Shown piece by piece: positions 6,050-64,000 of a DNA stretch of 64,000 nt. Source of the DNA: Chamaelirium japonicum. Lineage: Eukaryota > Streptophyta > Magnoliopsida > Liliales > Melanthiaceae. The stretch covers positions 32,501 through 96,500 of the forward strand of contig CANTAL010000145.1 of assembly GCA_947650365.1 (NCBI GenBank). Reading direction: 5' to 3'. Made by a program: the position numbers and the translations under genes. The notes under the pieces are model-generated. The model ran no database searches. It was not told where the DNA came from and saw only the letters and a list, made by a program, of their open reading frames with translations. Position 1 is the stretch's first letter, and every line of letters begins with the position of its first letter.

Positions 6050-6275
6050 CCAAAAAAAACCTCTGCAATGTAAAATCTGCTCAGCTTCGACAAGAACGAA
6101 GTCGTCCGGACCGGAAGGAAGTGGGCAGATTTGGTCAGTCTGTCCACATTCACCCACACCGAATCATGCTTGCCCCATGTCAGCGGTAACCCCGAGACGA
6201 AGTCCGTTGTGATGTGCTCCCACTTCTCTACTACAGGAAGGGAATGAAGGGGCCCCGCAGGCTTCTAGTGAAACA
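6050..6275 (-). pseudogene. fragment of chromovirus (Tekay/Del-type) integrase
   Basis: The minus strand encodes [17 protein letters not shown] and, upstream of it, a decayed MDF-type segment. Both match the integrase core of the complete element D in this window (about 56,640-56,870), including the block reading 'aaccccgagacgaagtcc' on the plus strand. Only ~220 bp survive, so it is a truncated relic of the same family as D. The catalytic D,D35E set is not complete here. Confidence 0.75.
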
Positions 6276-17422: not shown

Positions 17423-18717
17423 ATGGCTGATCGTACCCATCTGCACCGGGATGCCCAGAATCGAGGCCGTTTTCCTCGCGGACCACAACCTCGTGGTGCG
17501 TGGCAAGAGGCAACCCAAAATACGTTGGATCGACATGCAACCTTGTTGCAAGAGATCACCGATAGGCTGGGATTACTGTTACAAGATAGAGGCGTCGACC
17601 CTAATACCCGACCGGTCGAAGAGGACCTGGAAGGGGCAGAGGCCAATCCATGTGCTGAGGGTCATAGGGTCGAAGGGCAAGAACGGGACCAGAGCGTAAA
17701 TCAAAATCCGATTCCAAACCCACCTCGGAACCAGAACCAAGCCCTACCTCAGAATCACAACCGATACCAGCCGCACGAGCGAAATCGAGCTGACTATCTC
17801 GAGTCGCCCCCTGAGTCTGAAGCTGAGTTGGACGAGTCCGACGTGGACTTTGAACGAGAGTACGTTCAGTTCGGTCGTCCCAGAAACCCTAGAGAGCAGC
17901 ATACGCGTGATCAGCACGGCATAGAGGAGCGTCTTGTGCGAGCCCTTGAGAGATCCCAAGGATACGAAGTCCGAGTTGACATCGATGACTTTAGAGGAAG
18001 CCATGGTGCTGACGCATTCCTTGACTGGATAGATAGCGTCGAGCACTTCTTTGATTGGAGAGATCTCCCCGACGATCGAAAAGTCAAACTCGTGGCAACG
18101 AAACTGAAAGGAGCCGCTTTAGTTTGGTGGCGAGAGTTGCAAACAAGTCGCCTTAGGAAAGGGAAACCAAAGGTCGCAACGTGGGCCAAGATGCGTGATA
18201 AGATGCGACTGAAGTACCTTCCTCCTGACTACCGTACCTCTCTGTACCAGAGGTTGCTTAGCCTAAAACAAGGCAATCGAAGCGTACAGGAGTACACTGA
18301 AGAGTTTGACATCCTGACCACTCGTAATGTCATCCCGAAAGACGATGAACAGAAAGCTGCACGCTACGTCTCGGGGTTGCGCTACCAAATTCAGGATGCG
18401 CTAGCAATGCAGACCATCCTCACTGTGACGGAAGCATATAGGCAAGCTCTCAAGGCTGAGAAGATTCAACAACGGGCCTTTAGGAGAGAAGTTGCCCCTC
18501 GAGTACCCCCAGGTGCCCCTCAGCAGGAAGAGGAGTACCTCCTACTAGAGTCACCCCACCTGTTCCCACTCCGACTACCATTCCATCAAGAACCAATCAA
18601 CCCCCTGGTCGGGTTGAACCATCAAGTCGTGAGCGAGGTACGACAGGAAGTCGACCACCCGGAGCGACTTACAAATGCTTCGAGTGCGGAGAAGTAGGAC
18701 ACCTCATCGCCCAATGC
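17423..18717 (+). pseudogene. element A Gag
   Basis: The frame opens at 17,423 (MADRTHLHRDAQN...), with an acidic, Arg/Gln-rich N-terminus. The Retrotrans_gag core spans about residues 190-350: DAFLDWIDSVEHFFDW, LVWWRELQ, then ...RSVQEYTEEFDILTTRN. The core folds into the capsid that packages element RNA. The zinc knuckle CFECGEVGHLIAQC (18,676-18,717) is in another frame, so a frameshift occurred between about 18,500 and 18,670 and the original frame ends at 18,697. Its core is homologous to the Gag of element B. Confidence 0.85.
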
Positions 18718-21700
18718 CCAAAAAGGAGACCTCAGACCTATCTGACCGAAAGTGGAGAGCCAACTAAGGAAACCCTGAACAACATGGCTGAAGAAGGGCA
18801 TGATGATGATCCTAGAGATATCGAATATCAGGAGGATGATGAGACACATGACGTCATCGCTGAAGCTGACGAGGCAACGCATGCACTAGTCATGCACCGT
18901 GTTTTATCGACACCCAAAGCTTCTGAACCAGATCGATGACTTAGAATGAACATCTTCCACACCACTTGTACCTCAAAGGGGAGGCATTGCGTTCTCATCA
19001 TAGACAGTGGTAGTACCGAGAACTTGGTCGCCCAGATCATGGTTGACAAGTTAGGACTCAAGACAGAGAAGCTGGTCAAGCCATACAACTTGTCTTGGTT
19101 TAAGAAAGGATCAGATGTCGCTATCAAAGAGTGATGCCTAGTCGAATACACCATTGGCAAGATGTATAAGGAAGTTGTGTGGTGTGACGTGGCGCCCTTG
19201 GGCATTTGTCACATTCTGTTGGGCCGCCCATGGCAGTACGACAGAAAGACAACACATGATGGGGAGAAGAACACCTATTCCTTCTGTAAGGATGACTACA
19301 ATATCACCTTAGTGCCTCAGAGGGAGCCCCTGAAACCAATTTCTAGTGAGCCGACACCCCCACCCATCACCCCAAAATTGCCAAAAGAAAAACCGAAAGC
19401 CCTACCAACATTGCTGACACAAGCTTGCTTCGAGGACGAGCTTAGAGAATCTCGCTCCATCTTTTTCCTCGTAGCAAAAGGAGCCATAGAGGGTCCTAGT
19501 ATTCCTCATGAGGTTCGAGTCCTACTTGAAGACTTCAATGATCTCATCCCAGAGGAACTACCTAAAGGACTTCCACCTCTTCGGGATATTCAACATTGTG
19601 TTGACCTAGTCCCAGGAGCGACGCCACCTCACCTTCCTCACTACCGAATGAGCCCGTCTGAATATGAGGAGATGCGTCGACAGGTTACCGAGTTACTGCA
19701 AAAGGGACTAATCCAAGAGAGCATGAGTCCATGCGTAGTACCGGCACTCCTAACTCCCAAGAAGGATGGGACGTGGAGAATGTGCATAGATTGTCATGCC
19801 ATCAATCGAATAACTGTCAAGTATAGATTTCCGATTCCTCGATTGGATGATATGCTTGATATGCTATATGGCGCGAAAATCTTTTCAAAGATTGATCTTC
19901 GTAGCGGTTATCATCAGATCCGCGTACGACCCGGTGACGAATAGAAGACTGCATTTAAAACCCGGGAAGGACTGTATGAATGGCTAGTAATGCCATTTGG
20001 TCTATCGAATGCACCAAGTACCTTTATGAGGTTTATGAATCAGGTGCTCAGACCATTCATAGGAAAGTTCGTTGTCGTATACTTTGATGACATTCTTATC
20101 TATAGTACGACACCTGAACAGCATGTCGAGCACTTGCGAGAGGTTCTGAAAACGCTAAGGAAAGATAAGCTGTACATCCATCTGAAGAAGTGCACCTTTC
20201 TGACAGACAGTTTGACCTTTCTATGCTACATTGTGTGCTCCGAAGGAATACGGGTCGATCTAGAGAAGGTCGAAGCCATCAAATCATGGCCCGTTCCCCA
20301 GAACGTTAGTGATGTGCGACAGTTCCATGGTCTGGCGTCCTTTTATCGCAGATTCATTAGGAACTTCAGTTCCGTCATTGCACCTCTCACGAACTGTATG
20401 AAGAAGGGTGGTTTCCTTTGGACCCCCGAAGTTGAAGCGAGTTTCGATCTCATCAAGACCAAGATGATGAGTGCTCCAGTTTTGGCACTCCCGAACTTTG
20501 AAAAGGTCTTTGAGATTGACTGTGATGCCTCTCACGTCGGGATAGGAGCAGTCCTTAGTCAAGAGGGGCATCCCGTCGCATTCTTCAGCGAGAAGTTGAA
20601 CGCCGCGCGTTTGAATTACTCGACATACGACATTGAGTTTTACGCGGTTGTTCAAGCCCTCAAGCATTGGAGGCATTACTTGATCCAGTGAGAATTTGTG
20701 CTCAATTCTGACCATGAAGCGCTTCGCTATCTGAAGTCTCAGCGTAGCTTGAACCAACGTCATGCTAAGTGGTCAAATTTCTTGCAAGAGTACACGTTCA
20801 ACCTCAGATATAAGGCTGGAGTCCTGAATAGAGCTGCTGACGCTTTGAGTCGATGAGGCCTGATGCTAGTCACTTTACAGCCCGTCGTTGTTTCTTTTGA
20901 TGCTCTGAAATCAATGTACGCAACTGATCCGTACTTTGGTCCCATCTGGGGATCCTGTCAGGAAACGGGCACTGATCCCACGGCATCCTATATTATCCAA
21001 GAGGGATTCTTGTTCCGTGGAACCCGCCTGTGCATCCCTGAGTGTTCCCTTCGTGAGAGTCTTGTTTAGAACACCCATAAAGGGACCGTCTCTGAGGAAG
21101 GTCCAAATGAATCTTTTCGAGATACGTTAATCCACGACTTGCACGGAAGTAATTTGGGAGGTCATTTTGGCCAAACCAAAACAATTGAGTCAGTGGAGCG
21201 ACGCTACTTTTGGCCTCACTTAAGGAAAGATGTCGTCAAGTTTGTACAACGATGTCGAACCTGTCAAATGTTCAAGGGCAGAAAGCAGAACACAGGTTTG
21301 TACATTCCTCTACCGATCCCTGCTCGTCCTTGGGAGGATATCACCATGGATTTCATTATAGGTCTACCCCGAACACTTCGGCGCGTCGATTCAATCTTTG
21401 TGGTTGTAAACCGATTTTCTAAAATGGCACATTTCATACCATGTAGGAAAACTTCTGATGCATCTCATGTAGCTGAGTTATTCTTTATGGAAGTTGTTCG
21501 TCTGCATGGCATTCCAAGGTCATTCACATCTGATAGGGACACTAGATTCTTGAGCCACTTTTGGCGTACTCTTTGGTCAAAGCTAGGAACTAAACTTCAA
21601 TACAGTAGCGTGTATCACCCTCAAACTGATGGACAAACGGAAGTTGTCAACCGTAGCCTAGGGGATATGCTTCGATGTCTAGCTGGTGAAAAACCGAAAC

Positions 21701-22425
21701 AGTGGGATGTAGTTTTACCACAAGCTGAATTCGCATATAATAGTTCAATTAATCGCTCAGTAGGTAAAACCCCTTTTGAAATCGTCTATGGCCATGTTAT
21801 TCCCCATTTCTTGGATAGAACTGCCCTACCGCCTACAGGTCCTGCGAGTGCTGATGCTGATGAATTCCTTGAACACATCAAGACTGTACAGCGGGAGTCG
21901 CTTGAGAAACTAAGGGAAAGCAATGCCAGGTATAAGGCAAGCGCAGATTTACACAGGCGCGAGAGCACTTTCCAGCCAGGAGACTGGGTCCTCGTCTACT
22001 TTCGCAGAGAGCGGTTTTCCACAGGTTCTTATGGGAAGCTGAGTCAGAGGAAGTTTGGGCCCTTCTGCGTTCTCCGAAAGTTGGGACCCAATGCTTACCT
22101 GCTGGATTTACCAGATGATATGTCGACATCGCCGATCTTCAACATCTCTGAGTTGTTCCCTTTTTACGGAGACCGGCCGGATACGCCTTCAGCGCCACAG
22201 ATTCCTTTTTCAGATGCACAGCGAGACGAGACATAGCAGATACAGGAGATCGTTGATGTCAGAGAGCTTGCTACCCACCGCGGTGTCTTCCGACGGTTCC
22301 TTGTTCGGTGGGTAGGCAGGCCACTTTCAGACTGTACCTGGGTGGAGGAGCGATAGTTGCGAGCACAGCGGCCCGACCTCGTACAGCAGCTGGATGTCCA
22401 CTCGACGGAGTCGAGTTCTGTCTAG
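18718..22425 (+). pseudogene. element A Pol: protease, RT, RNase H, integrase, chromodomain-like tail
   Basis: One continuous frame runs from the Gag knuckle to the stop at 22,423-22,425. It is interrupted by in-frame stops at 18,937, 19,132, 19,942, 20,689, 20,854, 21,067, 22,234 and 22,354 but by no frameshift. Domains in order: aspartic protease (IIDSGSTENL, ~18,990); RT with [16 protein letters not shown] and the catalytic [11 protein letters not shown]; RNase H ([15 protein letters not shown]); the integrase zinc-binding region (~21,140-21,290) and D,D35E core ([30 protein letters not shown]); and a C-terminal chromodomain-like segment (RRFLVRWVGRP...WVEE). Most stops can be explained by C-to-T changes (CGA to TGA, CAG to TAG) or by a change at a TGG codon. 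The element is inactive. Confidence 0.9.
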
Positions 22426-51977: not shown

Positions 51978-54900
51978 TGTCACGCCCCGGATCCGACTAC
52001 ACGGGTAAACCCGTCAAACCCGGGGGTGATGGGGTTATAAGGGTAAGTCAATGTTGTAAGGTTGCGAGGTTGATTTTATTATTTAGTTATTTATTACTAA
52101 TTTATCATTAACTATTTACTAGTTAATAGGGGATGGCTTTGAGGAGAAGCCTACCAATAGCTTAGCCTTGAGGAAAGGCCTACCGGGCATGAAGCTTGAG
52201 GAGAAGCTTACCAGGGGAAATATCACTGATTCTGGCATTATTCAGAGCATCTAAAACATAGTTCCATAATTATTACATAACCAACTAGAAATAATAAAAA
52301 CTAGCTAATAGCTCTAGTGTCCTCTCTCGATAGCTATTTAGGATCCTCTAGGAAGCGTCAGAGAAGGATCTACGGTACCTGAAAAGAGTGTGCAATAACG
52401 GGGTGAGTTTACTAGGTAAACTCAGTGAACAGTTAACCCTAAAATAGCTAGGGTAAACCATAGTCATACTCTGCCCTTCTAGAAGTCTACGAGGGCGACA
52501 ACATACACATACATATATTGCAAATAAGCTAGTTTAGCTAGCTAATATGACAGTTCTACTATGGTACAACTACAACTAGTAAATGTAAGACAAATAATCA
52601 TCCAGATTAAAAGTATGCAACTAATCACCGAAGGTTAGTTCTACCTACTCCTAAAGTGAACCGACAGTTTTCTAACTGAGTCTGCCAACAGAACCTGGGT
52701 CCAAGTATCCTTGAAGAGCCAGAAATACCCATATGGCCATAAGGGGGCTTGGTCTTTCACCATGGGGCACTCCCGCCCAACTTGCTTCTTCGGGGTCATT
52801 ACCCAGGGGTGGACTACTAGGCCACTAGGGTCTTTACCGCCTGCCCAACCCTGTGACCCTACCTACTTGATTCGGATTATGCACAGGCGGTGGTTCACCT
52901 CCCATCCTGTGCACTCGGGTCCCCTACCCATGCTCGTGAGTAGTGAGTCTTCCCTCTGGGAAGAGAACCTCAACTGAGGAAGTACAATCACCAGTCTCTC
53001 CATTGAGACCACTGGTCTCTTTACCGAGACCATCAGTCTTCGTTGCTCAATAGCAACTGGACTGCACCATGCGACCCATGGTCACCAAACACCGTCATTC
53101 AACAGAATATTGATAAATAATCAGTACAAGTATCTATTTGTTTGCATGCATCCTAGTGTGAATCTAGGTTGAGTTAATCACCGTTACAGCTATCAAAATA
53201 TTACATGCATGACTATTCAGAGGTAAGGGATAGTATGCCCACCTCCCACATGCAGTACCGGTTTCCCGCCTGCATGCATTGGACATACTATGCCACATAC
53301 GGTTTTATTTATTATTTTACAGATACAACTACAATCTACTCTAACTAGAATAGAATTAATCATGTTCACCTGGAGAATAGCTCGGTAGTCCACGCTCCTC
53401 ACACCTATCGGTCCGGTGTACCGTCGAAGACGAAACTGACCATCATGGTTTAAAATATATAAGTTGTTACATCCATAATTTAGTCAAACTAGGGTTCTAA
53501 AAAGGTTGGTTTAGGTATGAGGGACCCATGGGATCCGGTCTCGCTCGAATCCGACTTCGGTCGGAGGTTTTAGGGTCGAACCGGTGAAAACCGGTCTATG
53601 ATCGGTTCAATAGGTTAAATTGCTTTCCAGGATACCAAACTAGGTTCAATACATCGGCATCGATGATCTGAGCACGATGCCACTGGTTTCGTCCAATTCC
53701 AAGATCGGACGGAGAATTGGCGGTCAAACCAAGGTGCACCAATTAGTTCAGGTTCATGAATAAAATGGGATACTAAATAATATAATTACTGTACTAAACT
53801 ATGGCCAAAATGTATAATTTTCCAAGCCGATCGTAATGCCACTGGTTTCGTTCGATTCCGAGATCGGACGAAGAAATGGCAGCTGAACCAATTCCTGGTC
53901 GGTTTAAGGGTCTGGTTCAGGTGAACCAGACCGGTTCACTGCTGGGTCGGGTCTGTGTTATCAGGTTGGGTCTGCGGGTCGGGTCTGGTCTGCTGTTCGG
54001 ATCGGGTCTACTGTGTACTTAAGGTGGGTCGGGTTGCTGTGTAGTCGGGTCGGGTCTGGATTCAGGGTTGAGTTATTAATGGGTTAATAACAATTCAAGA
54101 AATGACACCCTTGTCCTCTTCTTCTTCAACAAAAGAAAACAGAGGAATGGGTTCACTGTGAACCCATCACCTCGGCACCCTTTTCCCGACCTCTCCGCAT
54201 CGCCCGGTCATGTGGTTGTGGTCTCCTAGACACCCCGACACCGTCGGATTCGTTTGAGTCCGCTAGTGACCATTATGGGATCCCCACCCGACTCGTGGAA
54301 GAGGAAGAGAAGCCATGCATGGCCACGGGGTGCTCGGCTCCGGTGGCTTGGGGCGGCGCCGGTGGTGCCCGGCCGTTCTCCCCTGCGGGGAATACACGGG
54401 AGAAGGTAACATGCGTTCCATCGAAGCCCGAGAAGGCTTTGGCCGGAGGGGTCCGCGGGTTTTGGGTTTGGGTTTGGTTTTGCTCCGGCGATCGCCGGTC
54501 GAGCCTGGGGATTGGTCCTCCCGACGAGGACCGGAGGTGGGGTCGCGGTGGCGTTCACCCGAGTGGGCCGCGGCTAAGGTAGGAGAGGACCGTGCAGATG
54601 GGTTTGCGTCGCGGAGTACCGATGGGTCGCCGGTGGTTACAGCAAAGAAGAGAAAGGAGGAGGAGGGGAGGATTACCTGATGGGTTCGGGTTCGGTTTCG
54701 GAGTGGCTCGCCGCTGCGTGGATCGTCGGGCCGCTGCAACTCCTTCCCCTTCTCTTTTATCTCTCTCTCTCTCTCTTCTCTCTCTATATAACTCTCTCTC
54801 TCTCTTGGTTCTACCGTTCTCTTTCTCTCTCTAGATTCTTCATAAAGAGGGAAATGGCTGTTATGGTGGTCAAGAGGGTTGGGGGATCAGATTGTTAAGG

Positions 54901-55753: not shown

Positions 55754-56935
55754 TCATACATCAAAGAGATCAGGGTACAATCGCAACATATCGGACTCCA
55801 CTTCCCAAGTGGTCTCATCCTCACCTCGATGACTCCACAAAATCTTGACCATCTTGATGGTCTTGGTGCGAAGTACCCTATCTTCGGAAGCTAAAACACG
55901 GATCGGCCGCTCCTCAAAAGTGGCATCGGCATTTAGCTCCAAGTCTTGCCAATCTAGTACATGTGTCGGGTCTGGCATGTACCTCCGGAGCATCGACACG
56001 TGGAACACTGGGTGCATTGCTGAGAGCCGAGGTGGCAACGCCAGACGATACGCCACCTCTCCGACTCGATCTAGAATCTCGAACGGTCCCGTAAATCTCG
56101 GTGCTAGTTTTCCCTTCTTTCCGAACCGAAAGACGCCACGCTTAGGGGAAACCCGCAGAAAGACATGGTCACCGACCTCAAACTCAAGGGGCCGTCTACG
56201 AATATCCGCATAACTCTTCTGTCTGCTTTGAGCTGTGCGGAGCCTTTCTCTGATAACCTGTATCTTCTCTGTAGTCTCCTGCACTAAGTCTGGTCCCAGA
56301 AGACTACGCTCTCCGACCTCTGCCCAACAGATGGGGGATCGACAAGGCCTCCCATACAGAGCCTCATAGGGAGCCATGCCAATGCTCGCTTGATAGCTAT
56401 TGTTGTACGAGAACTCCACCAAGGGCAAGTGCTCATCCCAGCTACCTCCGAAATCTATAGAACACGCCCGAAGCATGTCTTCCAATATCTGGATGGTCCG
56501 CTCTGATTGACCGTCTGTCTGGGGATGGAAGGCTGTGCTAAAACTGAGCTGTGTCCCCAACGCGGTCTGCAAACTCTTCCAGAACCCTGAGACAAACCTG
56601 GGATCTCGATCAGAGACAATGGTCACTGGAATCCCATGCAATCTGACTATCTCTGCAATGTAGAGTCTGCTCAGCTCCGATAAAGAGGAAGTCGTTCGGA
56701 CTAGAAGGAAGTGGGCAGACTTGGTCAGTCTATCCACAATCACCCATACTGAATCATGCTTGCTCCTGGTTAGTGGCAACCCCGAGACGAAGTCCATCGT
56801 GATGTGTTCCCACTTCCACTCTGCGACAGGAAGGGGATGAAGGGGTCCCGCAGGCTTCTGGTGTTCTGCCTTAACCTGCTGACAGGTCAGACACTTCGCC
56901 ACGAACTCAGCTACATCTCTCTTCATGCCATTTCA
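55754..56935 (-). pseudogene. element D integrase with chromodomain-like tail
   Basis: Continues the Pol frame after a TGA at 56,933-56,935 where Trp is expected (QFW[15 protein letters not shown]). It has the end of the zinc-binding region ([16 protein letters not shown]), the catalytic core with [24 protein letters not shown] and [13 protein letters not shown], a GPF/Y-type region ([12 protein letters not shown]) and a C-terminal segment with [16 protein letters not shown]. The last resembles the chromodomain of Tekay-type chromoviruses, which guides integration into heterochromatin. The D,D35E residues are present. The downstream stop at 55,754 lies 54 bp from the 3' LTR. Confidence 0.9.
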
Positions 56936-59115
56936 CCAGAATTGGCTCTTCAAGTCTCGGTACATTTTGGTACTGCCAGGGTGTACCATGTATCGAGAGC
57001 GATGCGCCGCTGTCAGAACCTCCTCTCGAATCTCCAAGTCCTTCGGTAGACATAGCCTCCTTTTATACCTCAGTCCGCCATCAGAATCAAGCGACCAATC
57101 CTCTACTGCCTCTCCCCTTATCAGTCGAGAACGCATCTCCTCCAACTCCTCATCATCTGCCTGGGAGGATATCACTTGTTTGACCAACGTAGGCTGCACC
57201 CGCACACTGAATAATCGAGTACTAGCGGGATCCTCTCGCACCAACAGGTCATACCCTTCAACTGCTACAATAAAGCTCTGTCTATCTGCAATCAGTCGAG
57301 ACATCTTGCTCTTGAACTTCCTGCTGAGCGCATCTGCCACTACATTAGCCTTCCCAGGGTGATAAAAGAAGTTGTCGTTGAAGTCCTTCAAGACCTCAAT
57401 CCACCTCCTCTGTCGGAGATTCAGGTCCTTCTGGGTACAGATATACCTCAAACTCTTATGATCACAATACATCTCGAAGTCTTCTCCATACAGGTAGTGC
57501 CACCAAATCTTGAGCACAAACACCACCGCTGCAAGCTCCAGATCATGGGTCGGGTAGTTCTGCTCATGAGGCTTCAACTGTCTCGATGCATAGGCTACCA
57601 CTTTTCCATCTTGCATCAACACACCTCCAAGTCCAGACTGAGACGCATCTGTATAGACCACGTATCCCTTCCCACCAATTGGTACTGTAAGAACAGGGGC
57701 AGTGGTGATTCGTCGCTTCAGCTCCTGGAAGGACTGCTCGCAAGCATCTGACCACTCAAACTTCACCCCCTTCTTTGTTAACCGAGTCAGAGGCAATGCC
57801 AGTCTCGAGAAACCCTCTACGAACCTCCGGTAGTATCCCGCTAGACCCAGGAAACTCCGGATCTCAAAAACATTCCTCGGTGACTCCCAACTCAGTACTG
57901 CCTCGATTTTTGCTGGGTCCACCGAGATGCCTCCTTCTGAAACCACATGCCCTAAGAACTTTACTTCTCTCATCCAAAACTCACACTTGCTGAGTTTGGC
58001 ATAGAGTTGGTGATCTCGCAATGTCTGTAGGGCAATCCTCAGATGCTCTGCATGCTCCTCTTTTAACTTCGAGAAGATCAATACGTCATCAACAAAGACC
58101 ACGACGAACCGATCAAGGTAAGGCCTAAAGACTCGATTCATCAAGTCCATAAAAACTGCTGGGGCATTCGTGAGACCGAACGGCATCACTAGAAACTCGT
58201 AGTGCCCGTATCGCGTCCGAAATGCTGTCTTCTGGATATCATCATCCTTCACTCTGAGCTGATGGTACCCAGTCCTCAAATCAATCTTAGAGAAGAACTG
58301 AGCACCCTTCAGCTGATCAAATAGATCCTCGATCCTTGGAAGAGGATATCGGTTCTTCACAGTAACTGCATTAAGTTTTCTATAATCGATGCAGAGCCGC
58401 TTTGAACCGTCCTTCTTCTGGGCAAACAAAACAGGGGCACCCCATGGAGAGACACTGGGGTGAATATACCCGAGACTCCGCAATTCTTCTAGCTGAGTAC
58501 TTAACTCCCGTAGCTCCGCTGGTGCCATCCGATACGGGGCCACTGAGATCGGTGCCGTCCCCGAAACTAGCTTGATGCTGAACTCTACCTCTCGAATAGG
58601 AGGAAGGCCTGGGAGCTGGTCAGAAAATACATCAGGAAAGTCTCGAACGATTGGGGAGTGCTCCAATGGATTCTCACCCTCAATCTCATTGGCCAACTGT
58701 GCTAGGAGGCTAAGATAGGACCCTTGCCGGGGCGTCGGATATAAAATAGCCAGCTTAGCTCCCGCAAAGAAGAACTCTGTATTGCCAGGTGGACGGAAGG
58801 TGATCTTCTTGGAGTAGCAGTCTAGTGAAGCATGGTATGCCGCCATCCAGTCCATCCCCAATAAGACATCCAACCCTTCTAAGTCGAGGATAATTAAGTC
58901 GGCCACAAGTTCATTGCCTCCAATGGAAAGCACACATCTCTTACATACACGGTCCACATCAATGCTAGTCCCAAGTGGTGAGACGACCGATAGGACATAA
59001 CCAAGGGGTTCCGACTGTAACCCCAAGGTAGCCATAAATTTAGGGACTATGTAAGAGTGCGTCGATCCAGTGTCGAACAAGACTCGTGCAAGGGTAGTGA
59101 ACACAGGTACAACAC
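56936..59115 (-). CDS. element D protease, reverse transcriptase and RNase H
   Basis: The open frame contains the aspartic protease ([17 protein letters not shown]), the RT ([53 protein letters not shown], and the catalytic [12 protein letters not shown]) and the RNase H ([32 protein letters not shown]). The start of the integrase HHCC region ([19 protein letters not shown]) closes the segment. RT/RNase H copy the element RNA into DNA and the protease matures the polyprotein. The frame is fully open from 59,115; the sequence joins Gag in frame only if the 115-bp intron at 59,116-59,230 is removed. Confidence 0.9.
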
Positions 59116-59230
59116 CTAAGGCAATAATAAGTAGTTATAAATGTGTTTATCCTAGCTATGTGATGTACTAGAGCACAACTACAGAACTGATTATGGAAAA
59201 GCTACTCTACGAGAAAGGATTTAGGGCTAC
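59116..59230 (-). other. candidate spliceosomal intron between gag and pol of element D
   Basis: Minus strand donor GAAG|GTAGCC and acceptor TTGCCTTAG|GTG. The 115-bp segment is AT-rich and has a CTAAC-like branch site (TATAACTAC) near its 3' end. Gag ends in stop codons just inside it. Removing it joins GSGIEG to [16 protein letters not shown], which is the expected linker and protease start, with the frames matching exactly. Confidence 0.6.
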
Positions 59231-60464
59231 CTTCAATGCCAGATCCAGAAGCTCCAATATCCTGACCAACGAGTGCATAAGCTCGACCGTGAGTCTGTTG
59301 GCCACTACCACCCTGGCGGACTGGAGGTCTTTGCTGAAGTGGCTGTGGTTGAGGAGGACGGTAGGGCCGGGCACCCTGCTGATTCTGAGGTGCCCTCTGC
59401 TGAAGTGGTTGGGGATGGTAAGTCAATGCTGGACGAGGGTGATATGGTAGGGGAGGTAGGGCTGGTTGCTGCTGCTGCTGTGAAGGACGCCGAGTGCAGT
59501 CACGCCTGACATGGCCATACGTGCCACATCTAAAGCACTTGGGACCCTGTGAAGCTGGGGGTCCCTGGGAGTGGTGCTGCTGTTGACGAAAAGGAGCCTC
59601 CTGAGACCTAAGCCTCTTGGAATGAAACCCGTGATCACTCCTTCCGTTGCCACCACTTCCTCGCTTCTCCTGAATCTTCTTGGCATCCTCTTGGCCTCGC
59701 TCTGCCACCAGAGCTCGATCCACCACCTCGCTGTAGATCTTCAGCCGCAGTACCTCGATCTTATTTTTTATTCCAAGCCTCAAACCTTGCTCGAACCTCT
59801 TTGCCTTACGCTCTTCCGTAGCTACCAGGAATGGATCATAGCGTGACAGCTCATCGAACTTGGCCTCATACTCGGCCACAGATAGTGTGCCTTGGTACAA
59901 GTCCAAGAACTTCTTCTCCATTTCATCTCGGACGCTCTCCGGAAAGTACTTTTCTCGGAAAACCTTCTCGAACTCCTCCCATGTCATAGGTGCCTGGCCT
60001 TCTCCTCGGGACCTCTGGATCCGATCCCACCAAAAGTCTGCCTCTGCCTCCAGCTGGTAGGAGGCCAGAGTGACTCTTCTCTCACCTACTACTTCCAAGG
60101 CATCCAATGCCTTGCCGACTTGCTTCAACCATCTGTCGGCCTCCACTGGGTTTGGATGACCTTTGAAGGTTGGCGGCCTCAGTACCTGAAAGTCCTTTAG
60201 GAGCTTCCCCATCCTATATGTATCCACTCTTTGCTCCTCTTGAGCAGCCTGCTGGGCCTGAGCTTGAGCCAAAGCAGCCTGGGCTGCTGCTATCTGCTCC
60301 TGGGCAGCTGCCTGTTGCTGGGCTACCATTGTTTGTTGTTGTTGCATCATGACTTGCTGCTGCTGCATCATTTCAGTCATGGTGCGGAACATCTCCATGG
60401 GGTCTGGGACAGCTGCAGCACTAGACGACCCAGGAGAGGAAGTTTGACCTCTGGTAATAGCCAT
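59231..60464 (-). CDS. element D Gag
   Basis: Starts MAITRGQTSSPGSSSAAAV at 60,464; a slightly longer upstream frame exists from 60,491, but this start suits the family better. The N-terminus has a long Gln/Ala-rich coiled-coil-like stretch (residues ~35-90). The Retrotrans_gag core spans about residues 110-270 (PVEADRWLKQVGKALDAL, DFWWDRIQRSRGEGQAPMTW, LSVAEYEAKFDELSRYDPF). The zinc knuckle is CFRCGTYGHVRRDC, followed by a Pro/Gln-rich tail ending GRAYALVGQ...GSGIEG. Gag packages element RNA in virus-like particles. The frame has no stop in the core. Without splicing it would end at 59,202. Confidence 0.9.
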
Positions 60465-60548
60465 CTGTAAAAATGCAGGCCTATAAGACACTTATTCGAG
60501 ATAAGAAGACTAACCTACAACTAAATCCCTTAGGATCCTATCCCTAAG

Positions 60549-60560
60549 CTTTGATACCAG
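60549..60560 (-). other. element D primer binding site (initiator Met-tRNA)
   Basis: The minus strand TGGTATCAAAGC lies one to two bases from the LTR end GTGACA. Confidence 0.85.
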
Positions 60561-60561
60561 C

Positions 60562-62683
60562 TGTCACGCCCCGGATCCGACTACACGGGTAAACCCGTCA
60601 AACCCGGGGGTGATGGGGTTATAAGGGTAAGTCAATGTTGTAAGGTTGCGAGGTTGATTTTATTATTTAGTTATTTATTACTAATTTATCATTAACTATT
60701 TACTAGTTAATAGGGGATGGCTTTGAGGAGAAGCCTACCAATAGCTTAGCCTTGAGGAAAGGCCTACCGGGCATGAAGCTTGAGGAGAAGCTTACCAGGG
60801 GAAATATCACTGATTCTGGCATTATTCAGAGCATCTAAAACATAGTTCCATAATTATTACATAACCAACTAGAAATAATAAAAACTAGCTAATAGCTCTA
60901 GTGTCCTCTCTCGATAGCTATTTAAGATCCTCTAGGAAGCGTCAGAGAAGGATCTACGGTACCTGAAAAGAGTGTGCAACAACGGGGTGAGTTTACTAGG
61001 TAAACTCAGTGAACAGTTAACCCTAAAATAGCTAGGGTAAACCATAGTCATACCCTGCCCTTCTAGAAGTCTACGAGGGCGACAACATACACATACATAT
61101 ATTGCAAATAAGATAGTTTAGCTAGCTAATATGGCAGTTCTACTATGGTACAACTACAACTAGTAAATGTAAGACAAATAATCATCCAGATTAAAAGTAT
61201 GCAACTAATCACCGAAGGTTAGTTCTACCTACTCCTAAAGTGAACCGACAGTTTTCTAACTGAGTCTGCCAACAGAACCTGGGTCCAAGTATCCTTGGAG
61301 AGCCAGAAATACCCATATGGCCATAAGGGGGCTTGGTCTTTCACCATGGGGCACTCCCGCCCAACTTGCTTCTTCGGGGTCATTACCCAGGGGTGGACTA
61401 CTAGGCCACTAGGGGCTTTACCGCCTGCCTAACCCTGTGACCCTACCTACTTGATTCGGATTATGCACAGGCGGTGGTTCACCTCCCATCCTGTGCACTC
61501 GGGTCCCCTACCCATGCTCGTGAGTAGTGAGTCTTCCCTCTGGGAAGAGAACCTTAACTGAGGAAGTACAATCACCAGTCTCTCCATTGAGACCACCGGT
61601 CTCTTTACCGAGACCATCAGTCTTCGTTGCTCAATAGCAACTGGACTGCACCATGCGACCCATGGTCACCAAACACCGTCATTCAATAGAATATTGATAA
61701 ATAATCAGTACAAGTATCTATTTGTTTGCATGCATCCTAGTGTGAATCTAGGTTGAGTTAATCATCGTTACAGCTATCAAAATATTACATGCATGACTAT
61801 TCAGAGGTAAGGGATAGTATGCCCACCTCCCACATGCAGTACCGGTTTCCCGCCTGCATGCATTGGACATACTATGTCACATACGGTTTTATTTATTATT
61901 TTACAGATACAACTACAATCTACTCTAACTAGAATAGAATTAATCATGTTCACCTGGAGAATAGCTCGGTAGTCCACGCTACTCACGCCTATCGGTCCGG
62001 TGTACCGTCGAAGAAGAAACTGACCATCATGGTTTAAAATATATAAATTGTTACATCCATAATTTAGTCAAACTAGGGTTCTAAAAAGGTTGGTTTAGGT
62101 ATGAGGGACCCATGGGATCCGGTCTCGCTCGAATCCGACTTCGGTCGGAGGTTTTAGGGTCGAACCGGTAAAAACCGGTCTATGATCGGTTCAATAGGTT
62201 AAAATGCTCTCCAGGATACCAAACTAGGTTCAATACATCGGCATCGATGATCTGAGCACGATGCCACTGGTTTCGTCCAATTCCAAGATCGGACGGAGAA
62301 TTGGCGGTCAAACCAAGGTGCACCAATTAGTTCAGGTTCATGAATAAAATGGGATACTAAATAATATAATTACTGTACTAAACTATGGCCAACATGTATA
62401 ATTTTCCAAGCCGATCGTAATGCCGCTGGTTTCGTTCGATTCCGAGATCGGATGAAGAAATGGCAGCTGAACCAATTCCTGGTCGGTTTAAGGGTCTGGT
62501 TCAGGTGAACCAGACCGGTTCACTGCTGGGTCGGGTCTGTGTTATCAGGTTGGGTCTGCGGGTCGGGTCTGGTCTGCTGTTCGGATCGGGTCTACTGTGT
62601 ACTTAAGGTGGGTCGGGTTGCTGTGCAGTCGGGTCGGGTCTGGATTCAGGGTTGAGTTATTAATGGGTTAATAACAATTCAAG
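60562..62683 (-). repeat. element D 5' LTR, interrupted
   Basis: Matches 51,978-54,099 base for base apart from about two dozen substitutions. It stops at '...aacaattcaag' where copia element G begins. Confidence 0.9.
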
Positions 62684-64000
62684 TGTTGCGAAAAGCATCA
62701 TATTATTAACACAAGACCCCTATATATAGGCATAATCGGAGGTTGGGATAGAGACGGGGTAAATCTCTAAATCCCAATAATCCAGGGGTCTTTATCCGGT
62801 GGGCATCCATATCCGATGCAACCACCGTTTCATAACACTCCCCCTTGGATGACCACCATTTATCATTGATTGCCTCATTAAAACCTTTGATGGAAAAACC
62901 CAGTGGAAAAAATCCTATCAAAGGAAAAAGAGTACAATCTTAGTTCTTCAGGAACAAGTTCTTCAGGAACTATGGTGGGTGCGCATAATGCTGCCTCGTT
63001 AAAACCTTTGATGGGAAAACCCTGTGGGAAAAACCCTACCAAAAGAAAAAGAGTACAGCACGCATAAATTTGCATCTTCAGGATGCCCTCCGCCTAACTA
63101 TTACATTACCACTATTACATCTCTCCCCCTGATTATATCTCCTCCTTATTACATTATTACATCTCTCCCCCTGATTATATTACATCAATTTGTTTGGTGA
63201 TTGAGCCTTCGCAGTCCGATGCCGTACACCATCTTCTGGAAAGTAGACTTGGGCAAAGCTTTGGTGAAAAGATCCGCAAGATTGTCGCTTGACCGTACTT
63301 GCTTGACTTCAATCTCCCTTTTCTTCTGAAATTCGTGGGTGTAGAAAAACTTTGGTGAGATGTGCTTTGTTCGATCTCCCTTGATGAAGCCAGCTTGAAT
63401 TTGAGCAATACATGCGGCATTATCTTCGTGGATAACTGTCGGCTCTTTGGTAACTGATGCCAACTGGCAACTGCTTCTGATGTGATGCACAAGTGACCTC
63501 AACCATACGCATTCTCTACTTGCTTCATGCAGGGCTAATATTTCAGCATGGTTCGACGATGTAGCCACAAGTGTTTGTTTGGTCGATCTCCAAGAAATAG
63601 CTGCATTGTTATTCAAAAATACATACCCTGTTTGGGATCGACCCTTATGGGGGTCAGAGAGAAAACCTGAATCTGCATAACCAATCAAGTGAGGAGTACC
63701 ACAAGAATAAAACAATCCCATATCAGTGGTTCCTCGCAAATATCTAAATATTTGCTTTATTCCATTCCAATGCCTAAGAGTTGGTTCTGAACTGTATCTA
63801 GCCAATAGATTAACAGAAAAACATATATCTGGTCTAGTACATTGAGCTAAATACAATAAAGCACCAATAGCACTTAAATACGGTTTTTCAGAACCAAGAA
63901 TAGTTTCATGTTCCTCTTTAGGTCTAAATGGATCTTTATGAATATCAAGAGGTCTAACAACCATGGGAGTGCTTAGTGGGTGACATTTATCCATATTAAA
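62684..64000 (-). mobile_element. copia element G (3' part; continues past the window)
   Basis: Its 3' LTR (62,684 to about 63,161) starts TGTTGCG on the plus strand and has a minus-strand TATA-like TATATATA (62,721-62,728). It holds two ~123-bp-spaced copies of 'cattaaaacctttgatgg'. The polypurine tract CAGGGGGAGAGA is present twice (63,119 and 63,162 edges), so the exact LTR end is ambiguous. It is inserted in the 5' LTR of element D. Confidence 0.8.
63185..64000 (-). CDS. copia element G: C-terminal RT region and RNase H (partial)
   Basis: Open to the edge of the window. It reads TPMVVRPLDIHKDPFRP, YLSAIGALLYLAQCTRPDIC and HWNGIKQIFRYLRGTTDMGL, typical of the copia RT-RNase H linker. The RNase H has YADSGFLSDPHKGRSQTGYV, SSNHAEILALHEASRE, VIHEDNAACIAQIQ and HISPKFFYTHEF. 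It ends LADLFTKALPKSTFQKMVYG before the stop near 63,185. Catalytic acidic residues are present. No stop or frameshift is seen, so the copy looks young; the 5' half lies outside the window. Confidence 0.9.
   Translation of the reverse strand, partial: FNMDKCHPLSTPMVVRPLDIHKDPFRPKEEHETILGSEKPYLSAIGALLYLAQCTRPDICFSVNLLARYSSEPTLRHWNGIKQIFRYLRGTTDMGLFYSCGTPHLIGYADSGFLSDPHKGRSQTGYVFLNNNAAISWRSTKQTLVATSSNHAEILALHEASRECVWLRSLVHHIRSSCQLASVTKEPTVIHEDNAACIAQIQAGFIKGDRTKHISPKFFYTHEFQKKREIEVKQVRSSDNLADLFTKALPKSTFQKMVYGIGLRRLNHQTN

Follow-up and report, generated by a model that had tools for sequence, protein, structure and literature searches.

A candidate spliceosomal intron between gag and protease in a Tekay/Del-like chromovirus of Chamaelirium japonicum

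Introduction

How does an LTR retrotransposon join Gag to Pol when the two genes lie in different frames, on either side of a short segment that begins with GT and ends with AG? The question is raised by a Ty3/gypsy element in a 64,000-nucleotide stretch of contig CANTAL010000145.1 (positions 32,501-96,500) from Chamaelirium japonicum, here called the window. An earlier note, made from the letters of the window, proposed that the segment is a spliceosomal intron. It is not well understood how single-ORF plant Ty3/gypsy elements produce Gag in excess of Pol. Intron-bearing and intronless relatives are found here in one genome, and this makes the role of splicing in the Gag/Pol ratio directly testable. 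The same pair of relatives makes it testable why an intron persists in an element that is copied through RNA. If the intron is overlooked in annotation, young copies would be labelled "frameshifted" and dead.

We suggest that the segment is very probably a phase-1 spliceosomal intron that separates gag from protease, with the spliced fraction of the RNA giving Gag-Pol and the unspliced fraction giving Gag and the genome.

Results and discussion

The element in the window

The element is an LTR retrotransposon near the right end of the window. It lies on the minus strand. Its features are, in the order of transcription:

60562..62683, minus strand: 5' LTR, lacking its outermost 8 bp (matches the other LTR over 2122 bp)
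60548..60561, minus strand: primer binding site GCTGGTATCAAAGC (sequence directly after the LTR end)
59202..60491, minus strand: gag ORF, unspliced (Retrotrans_gag 2.3e-18, zinc knuckle 4.4e-5)
59231..60464, minus strand: putative exon 1, gag through ...GIE plus base 1 of the following Gly codon (phase 1)
59116..59230, minus strand: candidate intron, 115 nt (donor GAAG|GTAGCC, acceptor TTAG|GT)
59131..59139, minus strand: branch-site-like TATAACTAC (loose YTNAY match)
58766..59115, minus strand: putative exon 2, aspartic protease (RVP_2 2.1e-32, model positions 24-131)
56933..58765, minus strand: RT, RNase H and start of integrase (RVT_1 4.4e-38, RT_RNaseH 1.1e-30)
55754..56932, minus strand: integrase, SH3-like domain and weak C-terminal chromodomain (SH3_Tf2-1 7.4e-28, Chromo 0.0043)
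54108..54127, minus strand: polypurine tract (sequence before the 3' LTR)
51978..54107, minus strand: 3' LTR, TGTCA...TGACA (LTR comparison)

The LTR pair aligns over 2122 bp with 24 mismatches (98.87% identity). The primer binding site resembles the initiator-Met type. The window copy is not intact, as pol carries an in-frame stop at 56933-56935 and the 5' LTR lacks its first 8 bp. No target-site duplication was seen at this copy.

Pfam matches give the Ty3/gypsy domain order gag-PR-RT-RH-IN. The Chromo match after the integrase reaches 17.4 bits (E 0.0043) against a cut-off of 25.1. The 3' LTR end, CCGGGGCGTGACA, matches GGGCGTGACA, the LTR end described for Retrosat2 (PMC3485330), which is a shared feature and not a formal definition. 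Retrosat-2 is placed under Tekay (PMC6317226). The window element thus looks like a Tekay/Del chromovirus, a label taken from such features, the RT trees holding only rows from its own genome. Retrosat2 has a single gag-pol ORF (ORF1) and an ORF0, and the word "intron" occurs 0 times in that text (PMC3485330), whereas gag and pol of the window element are split by the segment.

The segment between gag and protease

Read on the minus strand, the segment runs from 59230 to 59116, starts with GT and ends with AG. As 115 mod 3 is 1, the gag and pol ORFs are in different frames. The gag frame continues past ...GSGIEG for eight residues encoded by the segment and then meets a stop that ends the ORF at 59202 (59202-59204, inside the putative intron); its first ATG is at about 60464. 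A candidate branch A in TATAACTAC lies 21 nt before the acceptor AG, with no AG in between, and was judged by the YTNAY motif and the plant rules for branch sites and donors. The first residue of exon 2 aligns with position 24 of the RVP_2 model, which places the start of the protease directly after the acceptor. The domain model itself therefore begins inside the would-be exon 1, even though the gag tail by itself has no Pfam match.

Most of what the earlier note read from the letters was confirmed by this re-reading, including the GT and AG ends of the segment, its start right after GSGIEG, the different frames, the branch-like sequence, the end of unspliced Gag and the protease start after removal of the segment. 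Its title, which called the intron "in-frame", does not hold, since 115 is not a multiple of 3 and the segment shifts the frame.

Copies across the genome

The genome searched has 1,518,659,071 bases. The best 40 of 354 candidates from a DNA search and the best 150 of 1567 from a protease search were used, and 140 copies drawn from both were read. In viral contigs the window protease gave one distant match (35%) and alignment A1 gave none; the search of genome contigs for cross-species relatives gave one bacterial match, which was uninformative. With no useful relatives from other species, all comparisons are within one genome.

The segment is present in all of the best 40 DNA matches of the 354. 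Both GT and AG are intact in 50 of 55 copies of the window's own family (A), in 30 of 31 copies of family B (protease about 84% identical) and in all five copies of family D (protease 68-69%). The five A copies without the splice letters are at the low end of the family, with protease identities of 85-91%, and the one such B copy (L095) is at 81%. Among decayed relatives, both letter pairs are intact in 16 of 29 and lost in 13. One of the 140 copies (L198) fits none of the classes.

A second protease search used a D query, and the best 150 of 1769 candidates were kept. All 150 are at least 91% identical to it. Pol frames of 1135, 1139 and 1141 aa recur among these best 150 of 1769, and none of 1459-1533 aa is found there. 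Twenty further D copies read from the 150 all have the donor GAAG|GTAACC and an AG acceptor. One copy from this search has a frame of 4151 aa, possibly through masked bases, and carries the intron.

The segment thus sits at one codon position in A, B and D and is nearly always GT-AG. Being the same in many copies and in several diverged families, its placement is more than chance.

Eleven decayed copies (L107, L170-L173, L175, L180, L185, L189, L190 and L194) share a donor with AT instead of GT. Such a change would not be surprising in copies that no longer need gag. In seven others, L098-L104, the gag and intron region is decayed, while the protease is 94-97% identical to family A from residue 8 or 9 on; in L098 and L099 the pol frame measures 1126 and 1125 aa, respectively. 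These copies look like a mosaic that is spreading, with its breakpoint some 20-25 bp past the acceptor.

Length, frame and selection

Copies with pol frames of 1126-1141 aa have segments of 112, 113, 115, 121, 127, 129, 130 and 131 nt. The length is 115 nt in A, 113 or 112 nt in B, and 127, 121, 129, 130 or 131 nt in D. Among the long-pol copies the range of 112-131 bp therefore covers all residues modulo 3. Even within one D subfamily, of which 11 copies were chosen for their 1135-aa pol frame, six have 129 nt, four 130 nt and one 131 nt. The earlier note had asked whether other copies keep donor, acceptor and frame. In A, B and D the donor and acceptor are mostly kept; the frame is not, as the lengths vary modulo 3. 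Removal at GT-AG would be the only way to arrive at the same junction in every copy.

Donor-acceptor pairs were recognised by regular expression in 67 of the 100 copies tried, and in all 67 the gag frame stops inside the segment. In A and B it stops before the pol frame opens, which happens 6 (A) and 10 (B) codons before the acceptor. The 127-nt D form differs, its gag and pol frames overlapping by about 31 nt, and those of L123 by more. In the 129-nt form (L204) gag and pol share a frame, with three stops between them. A loose YTNAY match places an A 19-22 nt before the acceptor, with no AG between, in up to three copies per length class.

Both flanking exons are under purifying selection. 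Between A and B, dS is 0.78 and dN 0.096 for the exon-1 tail (79 codons), and 0.79 and 0.090 for the protease (115 codons), giving a dN/dS of about 0.12 at a dS of about 0.8. Low dN/dS on both exons indicates constraint at the protein level on either side of a segment that remained in place. In a gapped alignment the introns of A and B are 74% identical.

Intronless families

Three further families, C1, C2 and C3, have proteases 68-72% identical to that of the window element and came from the first protease search only (best 150 of 1567). Because the RVP_2 model starts inside exon 1, relatives without the segment were predicted to run from ...IE straight into G. This is what C1-C3 do: all 17 copies have a zero gap at the segment's codon, and in the 16 copies displayed the gag tail is followed directly by GGT. 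Seven of the 17 are open in one frame over 1459-1533 aa. Since intronless families have such long open frames, the intron is not indispensable. The earlier note held that relatives with one continuous gag-pol frame would point to a random insertion. Such relatives exist, but what they do is fix the exon junction; they do not point to a random insertion.

A copy that lacks exactly the segment

Two family A sequences among the 140 copies read, L009 and L010 (contig C2, protease at 47,865,054 and 47,908,619), lack the segment, exactly 115 nt being absent. Compared with the intron-bearing copy L011, L009 differs at 1 of 1329 sites upstream of the junction and at 4 of 729 downstream (99.9% and 99.5% identical). 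L009 and L010 are 43,565 bp apart, the same spacing as between the neighbouring copies at 47,856,938 and 47,900,503, and are identical over 2836 readable bases. From this spacing and identity we regard L010 as a duplicate of L009 and count the two as one event. The region around L009 is a cluster of family A copies with this repeated 43,565-bp spacing. A search by exact pattern for another empty site in family A gave none; its pattern letters differed from the variant of L009.

The L009 fragment (47,863,554-47,866,904) is a truncated piece that extends from the primer binding site as far as RT, with filler on either side. It lies inverted between the LTR and primer binding site and the 3' UTR and LTR of an element on the opposite strand. 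On this structure, L009/L010 is best read as putative cDNA copied from a spliced RNA and trapped in the course of repair or integration.

Alternative explanations

Programmed recoding by frameshift or readthrough could join Gag to Pol across the segment. Two-ORF gag/pol layouts are known to use recoding in other retroelements. The overlapping frames of the 127-nt D form and L123 are what such a mechanism would use, and for the 127-nt form taken by itself a frameshift is conceivable. A recoding signal requires a fixed frame relation, however, and the passage of the segment length through all residues modulo 3 argues against one: 112 and 113 nt coexist in B, and 129, 130 and 131 nt in D. Moreover, readthrough of the 129-nt form would face its three in-frame stops, and in A and B there is no overlap in which to shift. 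We consider recoding highly improbable. Translation of Pol alone from an internal start, by reinitiation or an IRES with the segment as a spacer, needs no fixed frame and so is untouched by the variation in length. It is equally hard to credit for other reasons. The pol frame of A opens without an ATG and has its first Met after the catalytic DTG; in B the first Met comes just before FDTG, and the D stretch displayed has none before the active site. An internal start would also leave the conservation of GT-AG and the exact empty site unexplained.

The damage to the window copy, in pol and in the 5' LTR, and the existence of relatives without the segment would suit a random, functionless insertion in a dead family. 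Such an insertion would hardly occupy the same codon in A, B and D, when A and B are about 0.8 apart at synonymous sites with a dN/dS of about 0.12, nor be found in many near-identical copies with long pol frames, and we give this explanation very little weight. A less remote but still unlikely alternative accepts the intron and holds that L009/L010 arose by microhomology deletion, so that it is no evidence for splicing. AGGT stands at both ends of the intron, a deletion between these 4-bp repeats would give the identical product, and the DNA is rearranged with filler at both junctions. On the other hand, the stretch in question holds 3141 pairs of microhomologies of at least 4 bp, 30-500 bp apart. 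It seems unlikely that chance would choose exactly the AGGT pair among these 3141, and the missing piece is exactly, to the base, the one that the predicted splice would remove.

The intron reading is thus supported by GT-AG at one codon in three families, varying length, zero-gap relatives, selection on both exons and a recent copy without exactly the segment.

A proposed Gag/Gag-Pol switch

Under the preferred reading of a spliced intron, splicing probably decides which protein is made. Full-length unspliced RNA would serve as the genome, be packaged, and be translated to a Gag that ends within the intron. The spliced fraction would join gag and pro-pol in one frame and yield Gag-Pol, so that the splicing efficiency of the host would set the Gag : Gag-Pol ratio. 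Spliced RNA that is reverse-transcribed would give intronless copies. The donors are GTAGCC in A, GTAACC in D and GTAAGC in B. Those of A and D, where +5 is not G, depart from the plant donor consensus at that position, and such modest donors would suit partial splicing.

The closest known system is Ogre, a Tat element of Ty3/gypsy with an intron between GAG-PROT and RT that is spliced from only part of the transcripts (PMC6317226). The likeness lies in a non-coding intron between two polyprotein ORFs and in partial splicing, which is proposed here. Ogre is not a chromovirus, and its intron lies between protease and RT, whereas that of the window element precedes the protease. Bianca (Ty1/copia) likewise has two ORFs and a spacer, with a mean of 172 bp and possible special regulation (PMC6317226); it belongs to another superfamily and splicing is not stated there. 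In EVADE and in BARE1 shGAG, also Ty1/copia, alternative splicing sets Gag against Gag-Pol (PMC12786077). There the unspliced RNA gives Gag-Pol and the spliced RNA a short Gag, so the logic proposed for the window element is reversed. This 2025 review describes plant LTR elements as generally free of introns, with Ogre and EVADE as notable exceptions (PMC12786077). A search of an open-access collection, which omits most subscription papers, showed no gag-pol intron in Tekay or any other chromovirus. An intron between gag and pol is thus known from Ogre; its placement before the protease in a chromovirus appears to be new, as far as this literature goes.

History of the intron

The RT protein tree unites C1, C2, A and B in one group (81/98), to which D and C3 do not belong. 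An AU test on protease and RT did not reject a common clade of the intron families (p-AU 0.216), and a DNA tree groups them together (83/91). The RT trees contain rows from this genome only; because of frame breaks, L146, L148 and L157 are absent from the first, and the second also lacks L144, L145 and L147.

Homology of the intron between A and B is clear, with 0 of 1000 and then 0 of 2000 shuffles reaching the score. Between D and A or B it is weak or absent (521 and 71 of 1000 shuffles; in a repeat test 169, 139, 49 and 6 of 2000). From these comparisons, one gain followed by losses and two gains at one AG|GT site are both possible histories.

We tentatively speculate, at slightly less than an even chance, that a chromovirus clade evolved a Gag/Gag-Pol intron switch independently of Ogre and in a different place. 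It would have kept the switch for long, even though a single event of reverse transcription on the clade's own spliced RNA can remove it exactly. C1-C3 would then represent erasure that became fixed, and L009/L010 a recent cDNA.

Other elements in the window

A second, distant Ty3/gypsy element lies at 18026-22380 on the plus strand, with RT 50%, integrase 37% and gag 31% identical to the element described here. It was used as the outgroup, and its RT piece has one stop. At 63185-64000 on the minus strand, adjoining the 5' LTR, is an ORF that by eye resembles the end of a Ty1/copia polyprotein. A short integrase fragment at 6058-6270 is 82% (protein) to 85% (DNA) identical to the integrase of the element.
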